A DNA stretch of 64,000 nucleotides from Qipengyuania gaetbuli. GTDB lineage: Bacteria > Pseudomonadota > Alphaproteobacteria > Sphingomonadales > Sphingomonadaceae. The notes beneath the pieces are model-generated. The model was not told the origin of the DNA. It was given only the letters and a program-made list of their open reading frames with translations, and made no database searches. The position numbers were made by a program, and so were the translations under genes. The stretch covers positions 558,001-622,000 of the forward strand of contig NZ_WTYF01000004.1 of the NCBI RefSeq assembly GCF_009827315.1, given 5' to 3'. Within the stretch, counting starts at the first letter, position 1, and the number at the start of each line of letters is the position of its first letter. Shown piece after piece: positions 33,183 through 40,017 of this stretch.

Positions 33183-33743
33183 TTATTCGCGCGTCCTGGC
33201 CCTGCGGGGCCGCTCCGCCGGATCCATCGCCTCCACCTTCGAGAAGTTGAGCGTCACCTGCTCGGCAGAGCAGGCCGTGACGGTCGCCATTGGCACGCGC
33301 ACCACCTGTGCGGTTTCCTCGTTGCGGATGGTCAGGTTGCGCAGGGTCGCGCCGACCTCGCACGCCATGCCTGCAGGCCGCGCCGCGGCCACCTCGCGCA
33401 CCTTCTGCACCGCGGGGAGCAGCAGGCTGGCCGCCTGCGGTCTCGGACCCGGCGCCGCCACATCGCCCGGAGCGGCCGAGGCAGCCCCGGCGGAGTCCCG
33501 CCACACCGTGTAGTCGCCCGCATCGGTCCGGCCATCACCGCTCGCATCGGCCGTGCCGTCGCCGGTCACGTCCCCGCTCGCGACCCTGACGCCGCCGGTG
33601 AAGCCCTCGCCCTCGCCCTTGAAGCCCATTGCGGCGATCCGGCTTTCGCCCTTGATGCCGTCGAACTTCATGTAGGCCGCCGCCTGCGCCGCGCAGGGCA
33701 GTGCGAGTGCCCCCAGCGCTATGAACCAGTTTCCTGCACGCAT
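33183..33743 (-). CDS. Secreted Hcp-like protein with a dockerin-type calcium-loop insert
   Basis: The 186-residue protein starts with a Sec signal peptide (cleavage near AAQAAA). The mature N-terminus (YMKFDGIKGESRI) and the C-terminal strand (EQVTLNFSKVEAMD) both match the type VI secretion tube protein Hcp fold. Between them lies DVTGDGTADASGDGRTDAGD (residues 58-77) followed by YTVWRD, which has the Asp-rich loops of dockerin / EF-hand repeats. Sec-exported Hcp-like proteins are known from sequence surveys, but their role is unclear. No T6SS genes lie nearby. Its start overlaps the end of the HTH gene by 25 bases. The identification rests on short motifs. Confidence 0.6.
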   Translation of the reverse strand: MRAGNWFIALGALALPCAAQAAAYMKFDGIKGESRIAAMGFKGEGEGFTGGVRVASGDVTGDGTADASGDGRTDAGDYTVWRDSAGAASAAPGDVAAPGPRPQAASLLLPAVQKVREVAAARPAGMACEVGATLRNLTIRNEETAQVVRVPMATVTACSAEQVTLNFSKVEAMDPAERPRRARTRE

Positions 33744-34594
33744 GATCTCTCCCCTTCCGCAGGGGAAGGTACGCCTTCGGACAGGTTAGCACAATCGCCC
33801 CCGCCCGATGCGCGCAGCGCCGCCGCCAGCTCCTCCTCCGTAGTGAGCAGCCACCATTCGGGTACGCCCGCCTCGAAGGCTTCCATCTGCACCGCCTCCA
33901 CCTCGTGGCGGTCGAGCTCCCACCCGGCGAGCTGGGCAAAGCTCTCCACGCCATCGGGCCGCGCGTCGTAGAACCGCTCGAGCCGGTTGCCGAACCACTG
34001 GCAATCGGCCTGCGTCAGCTTGGCGTCCGGATCGTCGCATTGCCCTCCGCACATCCTACAGGGTGGAACGGATGGAACAGGGTCCTGGGGAGAATTTCCG
34101 GCGGCCTCCGCAGAATCGGCAGCATCGGCTCTGGGCCGGTCTTCCAGCGCGCACCCTTCGCGCAAGGTCTCGATATCCCCGTCGAGCGTGGCGAGCGCCG
34201 CGACCACCTCGGGCCGCTCCTCCAACCGGTCGAGCCGCGCCAGGTGCGCGAGCAGCAGGCGGCTGTCATAGCGCCGCCGCCGCGCGACCTCCTCGCCGTG
34301 GTAGAACCCCGCCTCCTCCACCCGCTCGATCGCCCGCTCCGCCAGCGTAGCCTCCGCATGCGCGCGCGCCGCGAGCAGCGCCGCATCCCACGCCCGCGCG
34401 ATCGCCGCCGACGCCCGCCGCTGGCGATAGGCCGTCTGCGCCGAGACCCGCGCGGCGCGGCACGCAAACCGGACATTGCCGAACAGCTGGAGACTGGCGA
34501 GAAACTCCGCCTGCCGCGCGGGTGAGAACACGGTGTGCCCCTCCCCGTGCGGGCCGGCGGTGGGAGCGGGTTCGATGGGGACGAGAGCGTTCAT
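33719..34594 (-). CDS. HTH-containing protein of unknown function (terminase-small-subunit-like N-terminus)
   Basis: The 291-residue protein opens with a helix-turn-helix-like segment (LQLFGNVRFACRAARVSAQT, residues 35-54), similar to those of phage small terminases and transposase-associated proteins. An Arg/Ala-rich helical region follows, then a disordered linker (150-185) and a Trp-containing C-terminal part (LTQADCQWFGNRLERFYDARP). The linker includes QDPVPSVPPCRM, which is encoded by the 34-nt dispersed repeat in frame. A four-Cys cluster is possible (CRMCGGQC). It overlaps the Hcp-like gene by 25 bases. Function unknown. Confidence 0.6.
   Translation of the reverse strand: MNALVPIEPAPTAGPHGEGHTVFSPARQAEFLASLQLFGNVRFACRAARVSAQTAYRQRRASAAIARAWDAALLAARAHAEATLAERAIERVEEAGFYHGEEVARRRRYDSRLLLAHLARLDRLEERPEVVAALATLDGDIETLREGCALEDRPRADAADSAEAAGNSPQDPVPSVPPCRMCGGQCDDPDAKLTQADCQWFGNRLERFYDARPDGVESFAQLAGWELDRHEVEAVQMEAFEAGVPEWWLLTTEEELAAALRASGGGDCANLSEGVPSPAEGERSCVQETGS
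34054..34087 (-). repeat. 34-nt dispersed repeat, copy B (inside a coding region)
   Basis: The minus strand carries the same 34-nt sequence as 25049-25082 with one base different. Here it lies in frame in the linker of the HTH protein and encodes about residues 169-181. The reading frame is kept, so either the repeat inserted without harm or the repeat is itself of coding origin. Confidence 0.8.
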
Positions 34595-34769
34595 GGTTCA
34601 CCTCATGGAGTGGAGTGAACCGGGTTAGTTATAGGGGGTTTGGCGAGTAGGACATCCAAAATTCAACCACTTGTTGAAGTTCTTGGGCACTATGGGAGTG
34701 GAAATTCCTAGGCCAGGGATTTGCAACGACAATCACTGCCAATAGCTAGATAAACTGCAGGAGGATCGA

Positions 34770-35393
34770 ATGACGAGAGCATCGTTGAAAAAATGGAGGC
34801 TAGCGGTTCCCGTTTTCATTTTTCTCTCATTCCAATCCATTGCAGCGGAGAATCTCGGGCTTCCCGCGCTAGCAGCCCCAAAGAGTTTCGAGAGCGCTCT
34901 CTTCAACCTTCCTGCGTTGCTGACAGTGCTCGCTTACAGCGCGCTTCCGCTTAGAAAGTGGACAAACCACGGCTACCATAAAGAGATAAAAGGGAATATC
35001 CGAAAGATAATCTTCGAAATCATAGGGGAGCCGGATGACGGAAAGACTCCGGAATCGAAGATAATGAATATCTTCTATCGTCAAATTGATCGCGACAAAA
35101 CTCTAGAGGTGAAATCGGAGATAATTATGTCCAATGGCTTTATCTGGACAAGCCTCGCAGACCTTTCCGTGATATCTATCATATTTTCTTTATTTTCTTT
35201 TTTTACTTACTACTTTGGTATTTTTGATAGCGGTCAAATCTATATTTTATTTGCGACAATAGGAATTGCTTCCCTGCTGCTCCAATCTGTTGTTACCAAA
35301 AAGCATGTCAAGTTGAGCACAGAGCAACTTGAGTACATGCGCGATTACCGCTCTGCAGAAATCAAAGCGGACTTCGAAAAGGCTCGTAGATGA
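34770..35393 (+). CDS. Four-helix membrane protein of unknown function, partner of the DndC-like gene
   Basis: The 207-residue protein is AT-rich and uses codons unlike its neighbours. Hydrophobic segments lie at about residues 9-25, 44-62, 126-150 and 155-175. Between the second and third is a charged soluble stretch (EIKGNIRKIIFEIIGEPDDG), and a charged cytosolic tail follows the last (about 180-207). Pairs of helices around soluble regions resemble SLATT-type pore effectors of defence systems, but similarity to a named family is not shown. A good Shine-Dalgarno sequence (CAGGAGG) precedes the ATG. Its stop overlaps the ATG of the next gene (ATGA), so the two products are made together. Confidence 0.65.
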   Translation: MTRASLKKWRLAVPVFIFLSFQSIAAENLGLPALAAPKSFESALFNLPALLTVLAYSALPLRKWTNHGYHKEIKGNIRKIIFEIIGEPDDGKTPESKIMNIFYRQIDRDKTLEVKSEIIMSNGFIWTSLADLSVISIIFSLFSFFTYYFGIFDSGQIYILFATIGIASLLLQSVVTKKHVKLSTEQLEYMRDYRSAEIKADFEKARR

Positions 35394-36430
35394 ATGACCC
35401 CGTTTTATCTGCGATTGAACATTCTGCAGAGGCGCTGGAGGTAAGGCATGATAGTAGGTGGATAGTTGGCTACTCAGGCGGCAAGGACTCTACCGCCACG
35501 CTAAAAATTTTACTCTCGGCCTGGAAACTCGCGACGAAGAAGCCACCATTCTTCGATTTGATTTATTGCGACACGGGCGTCGAGAACCAGATACTCGACA
35601 AATACATCAAGAATCAAATTCAAGACATAAATCGCGAAGCGGAACTTGATGGGCTCCCCATCAGGACGACAATTCTGAAAGCACCGGTGCAAGAGTCTTT
35701 CTTCGTGAAGATTATCGGTCGCGGTTATCCGCCGCCGACCAACAGCTTCCGATGGTGTACGAAGGCACTGCGCATCAATCCGGTAGCCTCTTTCTTGAAG
35801 GCGGCCACTGCTGAGCAATCTGTCGTTGCACTGGGATTGCGCCGCGATGAAAGTCAGCAACGCACGCGTTCGTTGGAGAAAAATGGCTCTAGCCACTGGC
35901 AAAGACAGAGGGAGTCAACGTTCTCTTACGACGTCTACCTGCCGATTTTAGAATTAGACGTGCCTGCAGTGTGGGATGCAATCTTTGGATTGACTAAGCC
36001 TCGGTCAATTAGCGCGTCTGATTTAGAGGATCTTTACAGGGGAGCTTCGGGTGAGTGTCCGATCATCAAATCTCCTCAAAGTCCGCCGTGCGGATCAGGC
36101 AGATTTGGATGCTGGACCTGTACAGTTGTGCGAAAAGACAAGTCAGCTGAGAAGCTTATTCGTTCTGGGTATACCCAATTGTCCCCGTTTCTGGAGTTCA
36201 GAAATTGGCTCGCTGAATTCCGCAACGACCCAAATGCACGCTGGAAGAAGCGCCGAAATGGCTCCGAAGGATTGGGCCCGTTCACGATGGACGCACGCTA
36301 TGAAATTTTACGACGAGTAGACGCATTGGAAGATGCGACAGGGACCGAAATAATCACATCGGAAGAGCGGGGCATGATCGCAGCGCTCTGGAAATTCGAT
36401 GACGTCCCTCGGCTATCATTTAAACTTTAG
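35390..36430 (+). CDS. DndC-like PAPS-reductase-family ATP pyrophosphatase with Fe-S cysteines
   Basis: The 346-residue cytosolic protein has the PP-loop YSGGKDSTATLKI (from residue 28), then NSFRWCTKALRI (Cys123), GLRRDESQQR (149-158) and PPCGSGRFGCWTCTVVRKDK (Cys234, 241, 244). This order and the Cys set match DndC/SspD, the sulfurtransferase-type enzyme of DNA phosphorothioation, which holds a 4Fe-4S cluster. It is shorter than typical DndC proteins, and no dndA, B, D, E or ssp gene lies near. Its role may therefore be a different nucleic-acid or nucleotide modification. It is coupled to the membrane protein upstream, AT-rich, and stops 10 bases before the uvrA fragment. Confidence 0.8.
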   Translation: MNDPVLSAIEHSAEALEVRHDSRWIVGYSGGKDSTATLKILLSAWKLATKKPPFFDLIYCDTGVENQILDKYIKNQIQDINREAELDGLPIRTTILKAPVQESFFVKIIGRGYPPPTNSFRWCTKALRINPVASFLKAATAEQSVVALGLRRDESQQRTRSLEKNGSSHWQRQRESTFSYDVYLPILELDVPAVWDAIFGLTKPRSISASDLEDLYRGASGECPIIKSPQSPPCGSGRFGCWTCTVVRKDKSAEKLIRSGYTQLSPFLEFRNWLAEFRNDPNARWKKRRNGSEGLGPFTMDARYEILRRVDALEDATGTEIITSEERGMIAALWKFDDVPRLSFKL

Positions 36431-36440
36431 CTCAGCCCTA

Positions 36441-36626
36441 CTAACCCGCTTCCCGCTGCCGTGCCAGCATCGGCTTGAGGTACTGCCCGGTATAGCTCTC
36501 CGGCACCTCCGCCACGTCCTCCGGCGTGCCCTGCGCGACGATTCTGCCGCCACGCACGCCGCCGCCGGGGCCGAGGTCGAGGATGTGGTCGGCGGTCTTG
36601 ATGACGTCGAGATTGTGTTCGATCAC
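36441..36626 (-). pseudogene. Detached 3' end of a second uvrA copy
   Basis: The minus strand encodes the last 60 or so residues of UvrA ([20 protein letters not shown] ... [13 protein letters not shown] and a stop). Bases 36451-36626 align with 37115-37290 in the intact uvrA with about 10 mismatches in 176 positions. Homology breaks off at GATCAC. No start or ATPase core remains, so it cannot function as UvrA. It is a relic or recombination arm between the DndC-like cassette and the DUF7662-like gene. Confidence 0.9.
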
Positions 36627-36669
36627 AACCAAGGAATTCGCCAGCCCCTGCAGTCGGCTGGCTCGTCCT

Positions 36670-37032
36670 TCAGGCACGGATAGTGATCTCGACCTGGCTC
36701 GGGTCCACCCCGAAAGCGGCTGCCAATCCGTCCTTGGCGGCCTGAATGGTCAGCGGTTTGGCGTTTGCGCTGCGCTTGTCGGGATCGTCACCCGCCACAT
36801 AAACCAGCGTCACTCGCTCATTTTCGAGATCGAGCGCGGTGGTCTTCCAGCCGGCCAATTGCCAGCCGAGGCTTTGCGAGCGCATCTGGTTCGACCACCA
36901 AGCCTGATGCTGCCTCGCGCTTTCTGGCAAGCGGAATCCGAGAACCCTCTCGATCTGCTCGAAGGTTGCTTCCCATTCGGTATCGTCGATTGATGCGAGG
37001 TACTCTGTGAGTTTTTGATATTTCTTAGACAT
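36670..37032 (-). CDS. Small DUF7662-like protein
   Basis: The 120-residue protein has the compact pattern [20 protein letters not shown], then [18 protein letters not shown] (residues 31-48), a conserved Trp in [11 protein letters not shown], and a C-terminal tail ending VEITIRA. The LP-x-SAR-x-H-x-x-WW-x-N core resembles DUF7662, a family of unknown function. It has its own AGGAG Shine-Dalgarno, an AT-rich promoter and a palindrome upstream. It sits between the uvrA fragment and the true uvrA 3' end, so it is part of the inserted DNA. Confidence 0.65.
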
Positions 37033-37101: not shown

Positions 37102-40017
37102 CTACTCCGCCGCCTCCCGCTGCCGTTCCAGCATCGGCTTGAGGTACTGCCCCGTATAGCTCTCCGGCACCTCAGCCACGTCCTCCGGCGTGCCCTGCGC
37201 TACGATCTTGCCGCCGCGCACGCCGCCGCCGGGGCCCAGGTCGAGGATGTGGTCCGCGGTCTTGATGACGTCGAGATTGTGCTCGATCACCACAACCGAA
37301 TTGCCTTGGTCCACCAGCCGGTGAAGCACTTCGAGCAGCTTGCGCACGTCCTCGAAGTGCAGGCCGGTGGTGGGCTCGTCGAGGATGTAGAGCGTCTGGC
37401 CGGTGCTGCGCTTCGACAGTTCCTTCGCCAGCTTCACGCGCTGCGCCTCCCCGCCTGACAGCGTGGTCGCCTGCTGGCCGACCTTGACGTAGCCCAGGCC
37501 CACCTCGTTCAGCATGTGCATCTTGTCGCGGATCGGGGGGACGGCCTTGAAGAATTCCTCCGCATCCTCGATCGTCATGTCGAGCACGTCGGCGATGGAG
37601 TGGCCCTTGAACTTCACCTCCAGCGTTTCGCGGTTGTAGCGCTTGCCGCCGCATTCCTCGCAGGTGACGTAGACGTCGGGCAGGAAGTGCATCTCGATCT
37701 TGATCAGCCCGTCGCCCTGGCACGCCTCGCAGCGGCCGCCCTTGACGTTGAAGCTGAAGCGGCCGGGCTTGTAACCGCGCGCCTGCGCTTCCGGCAGGCC
37801 GGCGAACCAGTCGCGGATCTGGGTGAAGGCGCCGGTGTAGGTCGCCGGGTTGGAGCGCGGGGTGCGGCCGATGGGCGACTGGTCGATCTCGATCACCTTG
37901 TCGCAATATTCGAGGCCGGTGACCTTGTCGTGCGCGCCTGCGACCACGCGTGCGCCGTTCAGGGCGCGCGCCGCAGAGGCGTAGAGCGTGTCGATAGTGA
38001 AGGACGACTTGCCGCTGCCCGATACGCCGGTGATGCAGGTGAAGGTGCCGAGCGGCAGGCTGGCGGTCACGTCCTGAAGGTTGTTCGCCCGCGCGCCGTG
38101 GACGGTCAGCTGGTGGCCGTTGCCCTTGCGCCGGACGGCGGGGACGGTGATCTCGCGCGTGCCGTTGAGATAGGCGGCGGTGAGCGAGGTCTTGGACTTG
38201 AGCACCTGTTTGAGCGTGCCCTGCGCCACCACCTCGCCCCCGTGGACGCCCGCGCCCGGGCCGAGGTCGACCACGTGGTCGGCGGCGCGGATCGCGTCCT
38301 CGTCATGTTCAACCACGATGACCGTGTTGCCGAGATCGCGCAGGCGCTTGAGCGTTTCCAGCAGCCGGTCGTTGTCGCGCTGGTGGAGGCCGATGCTGGG
38401 CTCGTCGAGCACGTAGAGCACGCCCGACAGGCCGCTGCCGATCTGCGATGCGAGGCGGATGCGCTGGCTCTCCCCGCCGCTCAACGTGCCGCTGGTGCGG
38501 TCGAGGTTGAGGTAATCGAGCCCGACATTGTCGAGAAAGCCCAGCCGCTCGTTGATTTCCTTGAGGATGGCCTGCGCGATCTGGCGCTGCGTGTCGTTCA
38601 GCTGGTCGGGCAGCGCGAGGAACCACTTCTTCGCATCGGCGACGCTCATCTTGGTGGGCGTGGCGATGTCGGTTCCGGCGATCTTCACGCTGAGCGCCTT
38701 CTCGTTGAGACGCTTGCCGTGGCAGGTCTCGCACGGCTGGGCGGTCTGGAACTTGGCCAGCTCCTCGCGCATCCAGGCGCTTTCGGTCTGCAGCATGCGG
38801 CGGTTGAGGTTGCCGATGACGCCTTCGAACGGCTTGCGGACGGTGTATTCCTTGCGCCCGTCCTTGAAGGTGAGCGGGATGGCCCGGCCGCGGGTGCCGT
38901 AGAGGATGATCTCGCGGATCTCGCGGTCGAAATCCTCCCACGGGGTTTCGAGGCTGAACTCGTATTCCTTCGCAAGGCTCGCGAGCACCTGCATGTAATA
39001 GGGCGACGGCGGGTTCGACTTGGCCCAGGGCACCACGGCGCCCTTCTTGAGGCTCAGCGCTTCGTTGGGGACGACCAGCTGCGGGTCGAACAGCTGCTTT
39101 TCGCCGATCCCGTCACACGTCGGGCAGGCCCCCTGCGGCGCATTGAACGAGAACAGACGCGGCTCGACCTCCTCGATTGTGAAGCCGGAGACGGGACAGG
39201 AGAACTTCTCGGAGAAGACGATGCGGTTGGCGGGGATGCCGGCACCCTTCATCGCGCCGCCGCTGTCGGCCTCGCCCTCCCTGCCCGGCACGACGCCGTC
39301 GGCGAGGTCGACATAGGCCAGCCCCTCGGCCAGCTTCAGCGCCTGTTCGAAACTGTCGGCCAGACGCGTTTCGATGCCTTCCTTCACGGCGAGGCGATCG
39401 ACCACCACCTCGATGTCGTGCTTGAATTTCTTGTCGAGCGCGGGCGCGTCCTCGATCGCGTACATCTTGCCGTCGATGCGCACGCGGGTGAAGCCGCCCT
39501 TCTGCCATTCGGCCAGTTCCTTGCGGTATTCGCCCTTGCGCCCGCGCACCACCGGCGCGAGCAGGTAGAGCCGCGTGCCTTCGGGCAGCGCCATCACGCG
39601 GTCGACCATGTTGGAGACGGTCTGCGCCTCGATCGGCAGGCCGGTGGCGGGCGAATAGGGCACGCCCACCCGCGCCCACAGCAGGCGCATGTAGTCGTAA
39701 ATCTCGGTAACCGTCGCCACGGTTGAGCGCGGGTTGCGGCTGGTGGTCTTCTGCTCGATCGAGATCGCAGGGCTGAGGCCGTCGATATGCTCGACATCGG
39801 GCTTCTGCATCATCTCGAGGAACTGGCGCGCATAGGCCGACAGGCTCTCGACATAGCGCCGCTGCCCTTCGGCATAGATCGTGTCGAACGCCAGGCTCGA
39901 CTTGCCCGAGCCCGACAGCCCGGTGATCACGATCAGGCTGTCCCTCGGCAGGTCGATATCGACGCCCTTGAGGTTGTGTTCACGCGCGCCGCGTACCGAG
40001 ATTTGCGTAAGTGCCAT
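37102..40017 (-). CDS. uvrA: Excinuclease ABC subunit A
   Basis: DNA damage recognition ATPase of nucleotide excision repair. The 971-residue protein has two ABC modules: Walker [21 protein letters not shown] near residue 31 and [15 protein letters not shown] in the second half. Signature motifs are [16 protein letters not shown] and [15 protein letters not shown]. Zinc-finger Cys pairs are in CPTCDG and CEACQGDG / CEECGGKRY. Start ATG 40017 has a perfect LexA box 12-26 bases upstream. Its last 176 bases are duplicated at 36451-36626. Confidence 0.98.
37115..37290 (-). repeat. uvrA 3'-end segment duplicated at 36451-36626
   Basis: This is the intact-gene copy of the duplicated uvrA end. The two copies lie in the same orientation 664 bases apart and flank the DUF7662-like gene. 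I count about 10 mismatches, so this is not a recent exact duplication, but fits import of one copy from a related strain. Confidence 0.85.

Follow-up and report, generated by a model that had tools for sequence, protein, structure and literature searches.

In a 64,000-nucleotide (nt) stretch of the Qipengyuania gaetbuli genome (contig NZ_WTYF01000004.1, positions 558,001 to 622,000; here the window), two adjoining genes near the 3′ end of uvrA form a candidate antiphage defence module: gene 1 encodes a putative membrane protein with four transmembrane (TM) segments, and gene 2 encodes a relative of the phosphorothioation enzyme DndC (Table 1). A first-pass annotation of the same DNA had described two AT-rich genes that overlap through ATGA between GC-rich flanks, and we could verify the coordinates, the overlap and the dip in guanine-plus-cytosine (GC) content, which is 46% in the kilobase 35001-36000 compared with 58-71% in the rest of the window (61 other kilobases at about 0.60-0.71, and 36001-37000 at 0.58). 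An aggagg resembling a ribosome-binding site lies 5′ of the gene 1 ATG, within the left junction. The copy of the uvrA 3′ end that follows gene 2, and the hotspot that this copy marks, were absent from the first-pass annotation.

Table 1. Positions in the window of the gene pair and of the features around it (aa, amino acids)
Feature	Position	Strand	Remarks
Gene 1, predicted 207-aa four-TM membrane protein, apparently a new family	34770..35393	+	Motifs LKxxRxxxPG, FYxxVDxDxSL, NGxxWTSxAD, KHxxLxxxQLExI
Gene 2, 346-aa DndC-like PP-loop (N-type ATP pyrophosphatase) enzyme	35390..36430	+	C-terminally short; DndC cysteines kept; clade-specific extra C60
Left junction, non-coding	34655..34769		Separates gene 1 from a conserved stretch that precedes the flanking gene and begins at about 34654
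uvrA 3′-end copy, 220 nt	36438..36657	-	Convergent with gene 2; 7 nt from the gene 2 stop
DUF7662 gene, separate small insert	36670..37032	-	Between resident uvrA and the uvrA fragment
Resident uvrA	37102..40017	-	Right anchor of the hotspot
291-aa flanking gene	33719..34594	-	Left anchor of the hotspot

Features of the two proteins

Gene 2 carries the full DndC/SspD motif set listed in the first-pass annotation (SGGKDST, RWCT and CGSGRFGCWTC) and is, as stated there, shorter than DndC, aligning to positions 8-295 of the 447-position TIGR03183 model. It scores 246.8 bits against this model, below the curated cut-off of 290.4, and matches the DndC model of PADLOC at E = 2.3e-77. The PP-loop SGGKDS is invariant in 29/29 alignment rows. 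Among enzymes that accompany a gene 1 homologue (the pair clade), the DndC cysteines are retained at C123, C241 and C244 in 31/31 rows and at C223 and C234 in 30/31, and the extra C60 occurs in all 31 clade rows compared with none of 24 other DndC-like rows. A Pfam scan recognised no DNA-binding domain in the protein. Gene 2 is probably a DndC-derived iron–sulphur (Fe–S) PP-loop enzyme, and the preservation of its active site argues for catalysis.

The first-pass annotation had named, as a finding that would count against it, a complete dnd or ssp locus elsewhere in the genome with gene 2 as its missing part. The host genome (2.78 Mb, listed as 100% complete) yielded no second DndC-like gene at E≤1e-10 and no DndD (TIGR03185) at E≤0.001; the DndD control search gave matches in 9 of 14 genomes, none of them above the cut-off, and so shows detection of related ATPases only. 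Searches of the host for DndE and for DUF4007/SspB (PF13182) gave no match, the control genomes being equally silent. A minimal phosphorothioation or restriction component with partners in trans would suit the retained PP-loop, the five DndC cysteines and the PADLOC match, but the host searches for DndD and a second DndC, the TIGR03183 score and the position of the enzyme in a separate clade on a long branch all speak against it, as does Paracoccus onubensis, which holds the pair (L015) together with a separate DndC (L048). We regard this explanation as very unlikely; the P. onubensis genome indicates that the pair and a DndC can coexist. Because no DndD was found in the host, phosphorothioation by the pair appears unlikely in any case. 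According to a comparative study (PMC10853773), DndD and DndE make up the functional core and DndC is a component recruited to it; gene 2, as a DndC-like enzyme without DndD, would fall outside that scheme.

The four hydrophobic segments in two pairs that the first-pass annotation had seen in gene 1 reappear in the family alignment (centres at 10-28 and 43-57, and a double one at 128-171) and are compatible with the structure model, which is all helical (predicted local distance difference test score 92.9; helices 3-28, 40-45, 47-58, 62-85, 95-108, 110-148 and 155-206). Across 27 aligned membrane proteins, R10, P14, L112, N122, G123 and Q186 are invariant, and F102, D107, D109, W126, D131 and H179, among others, nearly so. 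Hydropathy and charge suggest that the N terminus, the C terminus and residues 60-125 are cytosolic. The gene 1 protein had no match in Pfam or PADLOC up to E 1 and a single one in NCBIfam (SLATT_5, E 0.11); weak family matches of the 27 proteins were scattered, none recurring in more than three members, and no convincing structural relative of the model emerged from Foldseek (none at E≤0.001) or, likewise, from VIA. The family therefore appears to be new, covered by no Pfam, NCBIfam or PADLOC model.

Kinship with SLATT effectors, for which a comparison had been suggested, found no support. The SLATT_5 match, which covers the second TM pair, reaches 12.1 bits against a cut-off of 60; SLATT_1 is weak in 3 of the 27 proteins (best E 0.0062, below threshold); hhalign against the SLATT protein of locus L136 gave 0.9%; and SLATT proteins have two TM segments, not four.

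Conservation and spread of the pair

Gene 2 was used to scan 84,980 species, each represented by one genome, and the 80 loci most similar to it were retained; a profile of the membrane family was then searched against the stop-to-stop open reading frames (ORFs) of 100 loci (L002-L085 and L137-L152; L137 and L138 are the same contig). The membrane gene adjoins the enzyme gene in 28 of the best 80 loci (L006-L032 and L034), which are 28 of the 28 loci of the clade, and the pair is also present on two viral contigs (L138, L139). By contrast, the profile did not find the membrane gene at 69 other DndC-like loci (52 of the best 80, 13 viral and four from relatives), with fewer than about 700 upstream bases available at 7 of the 52 (L052, L053, L063, L067, L072, L073 and L077). 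Joint conservation of the two genes, which the first-pass annotation had put forward as a test, thus holds in this sample. A 55-row tree, built from 31 pair-bearing rows and 24 of the 69 others, places all rows with the pair on one side of a single branch with support of 100/100; the pair clade is monophyletic, separate from the other DndC-like rows and set on a long branch. Two viral contigs (L144:5920-6978 and L151:1352-2389) encode a different short DndC-like protein (roughly 350 aa), which forms a separate long branch and is not accompanied by the membrane gene; it may represent another type of small DndC.

Gene 2 starts inside gene 1 in 26 of the 27 intact loci with the same gene order, the window included (with the starts that we selected), and at L034 the order is swapped with the genes still touching. 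At L013 the membrane gene is split into two pieces in different frames and the enzyme is intact. Such an arrangement could mean that the enzyme silences a toxic membrane protein, by modification or through its product, and that infection frees the toxin: the tight overlap and constant pairing would fit, as would the fact that the sole broken copy found is of the membrane gene. However, one broken copy is no statistic, the genome scan was anchored on the enzyme, so that loci with a lost enzyme could not show up, and searches anchored on the membrane protein were small (one viral locus with the pair; 2 of 397 family genomes). We consider restraint of a toxin unlikely.

The pair is spread over six phyla (Pseudomonadota, Bacteroidota, Actinomycetota, Ignavibacteriota, Acidobacteriota and Thermodesulfobacteriota) in addition to the viral contigs, the presence in Ignavibacteriota, Acidobacteriota, Thermodesulfobacteriota and Actinomycetota resting on one metagenome-bin contig each. 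At all 30 loci compared, its GC content is below that of the flanks, by a median of 0.108. It is also rare: with the membrane-family profile, 2 of 397 genomes of the family matched, namely the window's own and G825, whose membrane gene is identical at the DNA level to that of L009, and a single-sequence search among 385 genomes of the class matched only the window's own. A membrane-family search of viral contigs gave one confirmed locus, which carries the pair.

Ten neighbours of other copies, picked by eye as defence-like and then scanned, gave seven strong matches, a selection that yields no measure of enrichment. The pair adjoins type I restriction genes and PDC-S18 at L010, lies near PDC-S28 at L016, and adjoins a type II methylase and a restriction-like gene on the viral contig L138. 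It lies near a nuclease-like gene (partial match) at L009 and near an ATPase with partial matches at L028; two of the ten, L028:4585-5628 and one from L024, had no match. From the reading of ORFs, an integrase-like gene adjoins the pair at L139, and at L014 the pair stands among phage-like genes.

A variable slot at the 3′ end of uvrA

The region downstream of uvrA was taken from 20 genomes of the same genus, out of the 39 of 41 with matches (the window's own among the 39); these 20 relatives were picked partly for extra uvrA pieces. Beyond the slot, rlpA and argG are present in 19 of the 20 (in the other, L133, the contig breaks off), and the 291-aa flanking gene is found, whole or in part, in 14. 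Between uvrA and this rlpA/argG block, 18 of the 20 relatives carry an AT-rich cassette of one or two genes, as read from ORFs that were defined by a simple longest-ORF rule and GC, with no gene finder. L121 and L124 were counted as empty, because the sole genes there, one LuxR-like and one regulator-like, recur in other relatives (L125, L126 and L128-L130).

Likeness among the 18 cargoes is limited to L126 and L135 (36% identity) and, weakly, L133. In 13 of them at least one protein matches a PADLOC model at E≤1e-7, in a scan of 30 of the 31 cargo ORFs (L120:769-1332 was left out). The matches are to TIR (L118), 'beta' (L120), AbiLi/AbiLii (L122), dCTPase (L123), PDC-M55C (L125), AriA/Old (L126, L133 and L135), a type II methylase (L127), DzbA (L128), PD-T4-10_B (L129), PsyrT (L130) and, in L136 from relative G017, a UG17 reverse transcriptase (RT) with an RT-associated SLATT protein. 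L134 has a weak match (3.5e-4) and L117, L119, L131 and L132 have none in PADLOC. As a control, ten hand-picked window genes gave 0/10 matches at E≤1e-7 and 2/10 at E≤1e-3. Judged by these gene contents, the genus has a hotspot for small defence cassettes at the 3′ end of uvrA.

The five cargoes without a clear PADLOC match encode proteins of 460 aa (L117), 486 aa (L119), 700 aa (L131), 288 and 138 aa (L132) and 387 and 89 aa (L134), and are candidates for further undescribed defence genes; with 5 of 18 cargoes in this class, the slot is a convenient place to look for more small defence systems of the genus. In L121, L122 and L124, uvrA is followed by a GC-rich intergenic sequence, cgcggcttatgccgcgaagcc, whose reverse complement occurs in L119 at the opposite edge, ahead of the 291-aa gene; this sequence is possibly a repeat of the REP (repetitive extragenic palindromic) type.

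Fragments of the uvrA end, of varying length, lie downstream of uvrA in 11 of the 20 relatives, a count that is not a rate because the relatives were picked partly for such pieces; among the cassettes they are perhaps transfer scars. In the window, the copy is 88% identical to the resident uvrA end (37102-37321). When the two are compared with the uvrA ends of the 20 relatives, the resident end is the more similar in 19 cases; it is also 95% identical to a displaced piece in G011. On these grounds the resident end seems to be native, and the fragment to have come from elsewhere or, alternatively, to have decayed. The fragment is probably the uvrA end of a donor, left as a scar of transfer. The DUF7662 insert directly follows uvrA both in the window and in relative G007 (83% identity), and the similarity between the two ends at 36657, where the uvrA fragment starts. 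In Sphingomonas PsM26 (L008) the pair adjoins uvrA in the same orientation, overlapping it tail to tail, with the stop of the pair beyond that of uvrA. We infer that the pair moved in from a relative and carried along the tail of the donor's uvrA; no integrase was seen in the segment. In G011 (L127:8697-9194), whose argG is 99% identical to that of the window, the 3′ end of uvrA looks foreign (72% identity to that of the window) and is followed, after a few bases, by the displaced piece that resembles the window's resident end; there the resident uvrA tail itself seems to have been replaced.

The pair might have no part in defence: the enzyme could serve metabolism or the stress response together with its membrane partner, and the two could merely happen to travel with accessory genes. 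Chromosomal, non-defence neighbours at many loci would agree with this. Its patchy occurrence over six phyla, its rarity, the low-GC patches at every locus compared and its presence on viral contigs argue otherwise, as does its position in the uvrA slot, where PADLOC models recognise 13 of the 18 other cargoes, and we think a role outside defence improbable.

Function of the pair and comparison with known systems

Its genomic context makes a role of the pair in antiphage defence likely. The earlier proposal of a possible undescribed defence system is supported in part, the uvrA hotspot and the restriction genes beside some copies speaking for defence. We would give about an even chance to a mobile two-gene antiphage module in which the DndC-derived enzyme controls a membrane effector, the constancy of the partner arguing that the product or target of gene 2 concerns the membrane protein. 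The gene 1 protein would then span the inner membrane four times and have its two termini and a helical domain on the cytosolic side, as the model and the charge distribution suggest. Gene 2 would sense infection, or be licensed by it, and would transfer sulphur or adenosine monophosphate; the recipient could be the gene 1 protein itself, a nucleic acid or a small molecule. This transfer would open or assemble the membrane protein, which would disturb the membrane and so stop the infected cell. Defence, division of labour, chemistry and outcome are alike our deductions. A bolder version, which we offer tentatively, would be an immune module of an entirely new category: an Fe–S PP-loop enzyme that descends from DndC but no longer takes part in DNA modification would produce a signal based on sulphur or adenylyl groups (a small molecule, a transfer RNA or a mark on the partner), and this signal would gate a new family of four-TM membrane effectors.

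Several points weigh against an enzyme-controlled effector in defence. The hotspot evidence is an association; several of the 13 PADLOC matches concern widespread domains (ATPases and methylases) or part of a model (L129, L130); and many copies in the clade have ordinary chromosomal neighbours. A membrane pore is a guess, because the gene 1 fold is without a significant relative. The broken membrane gene of L013 fits a costly effector and also plain decay or a sequencing error. Finally, a sensor or anchor could equally account for the roughly 100 residues in the cytosol and for the conserved positions that seem to lie near the cytosolic face.

The main rival is a Kiwa-like arrangement in which the membrane protein is a sensor or anchor at the site of injection and the enzyme acts there as the effector that modifies or damages the DNA or RNA coming in. 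The two-gene architecture of membrane protein and cytosolic partner resembles Kiwa, in which, according to a review (PMC12904381), KwaA tetramers in the membrane bring KwaB to injecting DNA, and DndC is active in DNA modification according to the comparative study cited above (PMC10853773). Yet none of the 27 membrane proteins matched a Kiwa model in PADLOC, a library that presumably includes such models, the Foldseek search was equally empty at its threshold, and the enzyme has no recognised DNA-binding domain. We find the Kiwa-like arrangement rather doubtful and prefer control of a membrane effector by the enzyme.

Among known systems, gene 2 resembles DndC, and with it SspD of the Ssp system and BrxP of type 4 BREX, in its PP-loop, RWCT, five conserved cysteines and RFGCWTC block; it differs in its shorter length, its extra C60, its own clade, its membrane partner and the lack of a detected DndD in the host. 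Kiwa shares with the pair its two genes, the combination of a membrane protein with a cytosolic partner and a possible siting of defence at the membrane, and its KwaA has four TM segments. However, the pair has no sequence or fold match to Kiwa that we found, and its cytosolic partner is a PP-loop enzyme, not KwaB; in PADLOC, which presumably includes models of both KwaA and KwaB, gene 2 matched no Kiwa model either. SLATT effectors, such as the RT-associated SLATT of L136 (G017) in the same hotspot, are likewise small membrane proteins beside an enzyme, and SLATT_1 and SLATT_5 give weak, sub-threshold scores; the pair's protein differs in its number of TM segments and in staying below the curated cut-off. 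Hailong and Pycsar couple a signal-making enzyme to a TM effector, the same logic as we propose here, with a nucleotidyltransferase or cyclase in place of the PP-loop protein.

The literature searched (titles and openings of abstracts, with supplements and bioRxiv outside the search) contained neither a pairing of DndC with a membrane protein nor a uvrA defence hotspot. Both DndC enzymes and two-gene defence modules of an enzyme and a membrane protein are known, whereas the combination seen in the pair, and its membrane family, were found in no library or literature searched. A DndC relative outside the phosphorothioation machinery, tied without exception in our sample to one membrane family, would mean a second immune use of this chemistry, and the pair would make the purpose of DndC genes without Dnd partners testable. 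If the bolder version above, with its sulphur- or adenylyl-based signal, is correct, it would be, to our knowledge and with no search aimed at this wider claim, the first defence signalling based on PP-loop thiolase chemistry.
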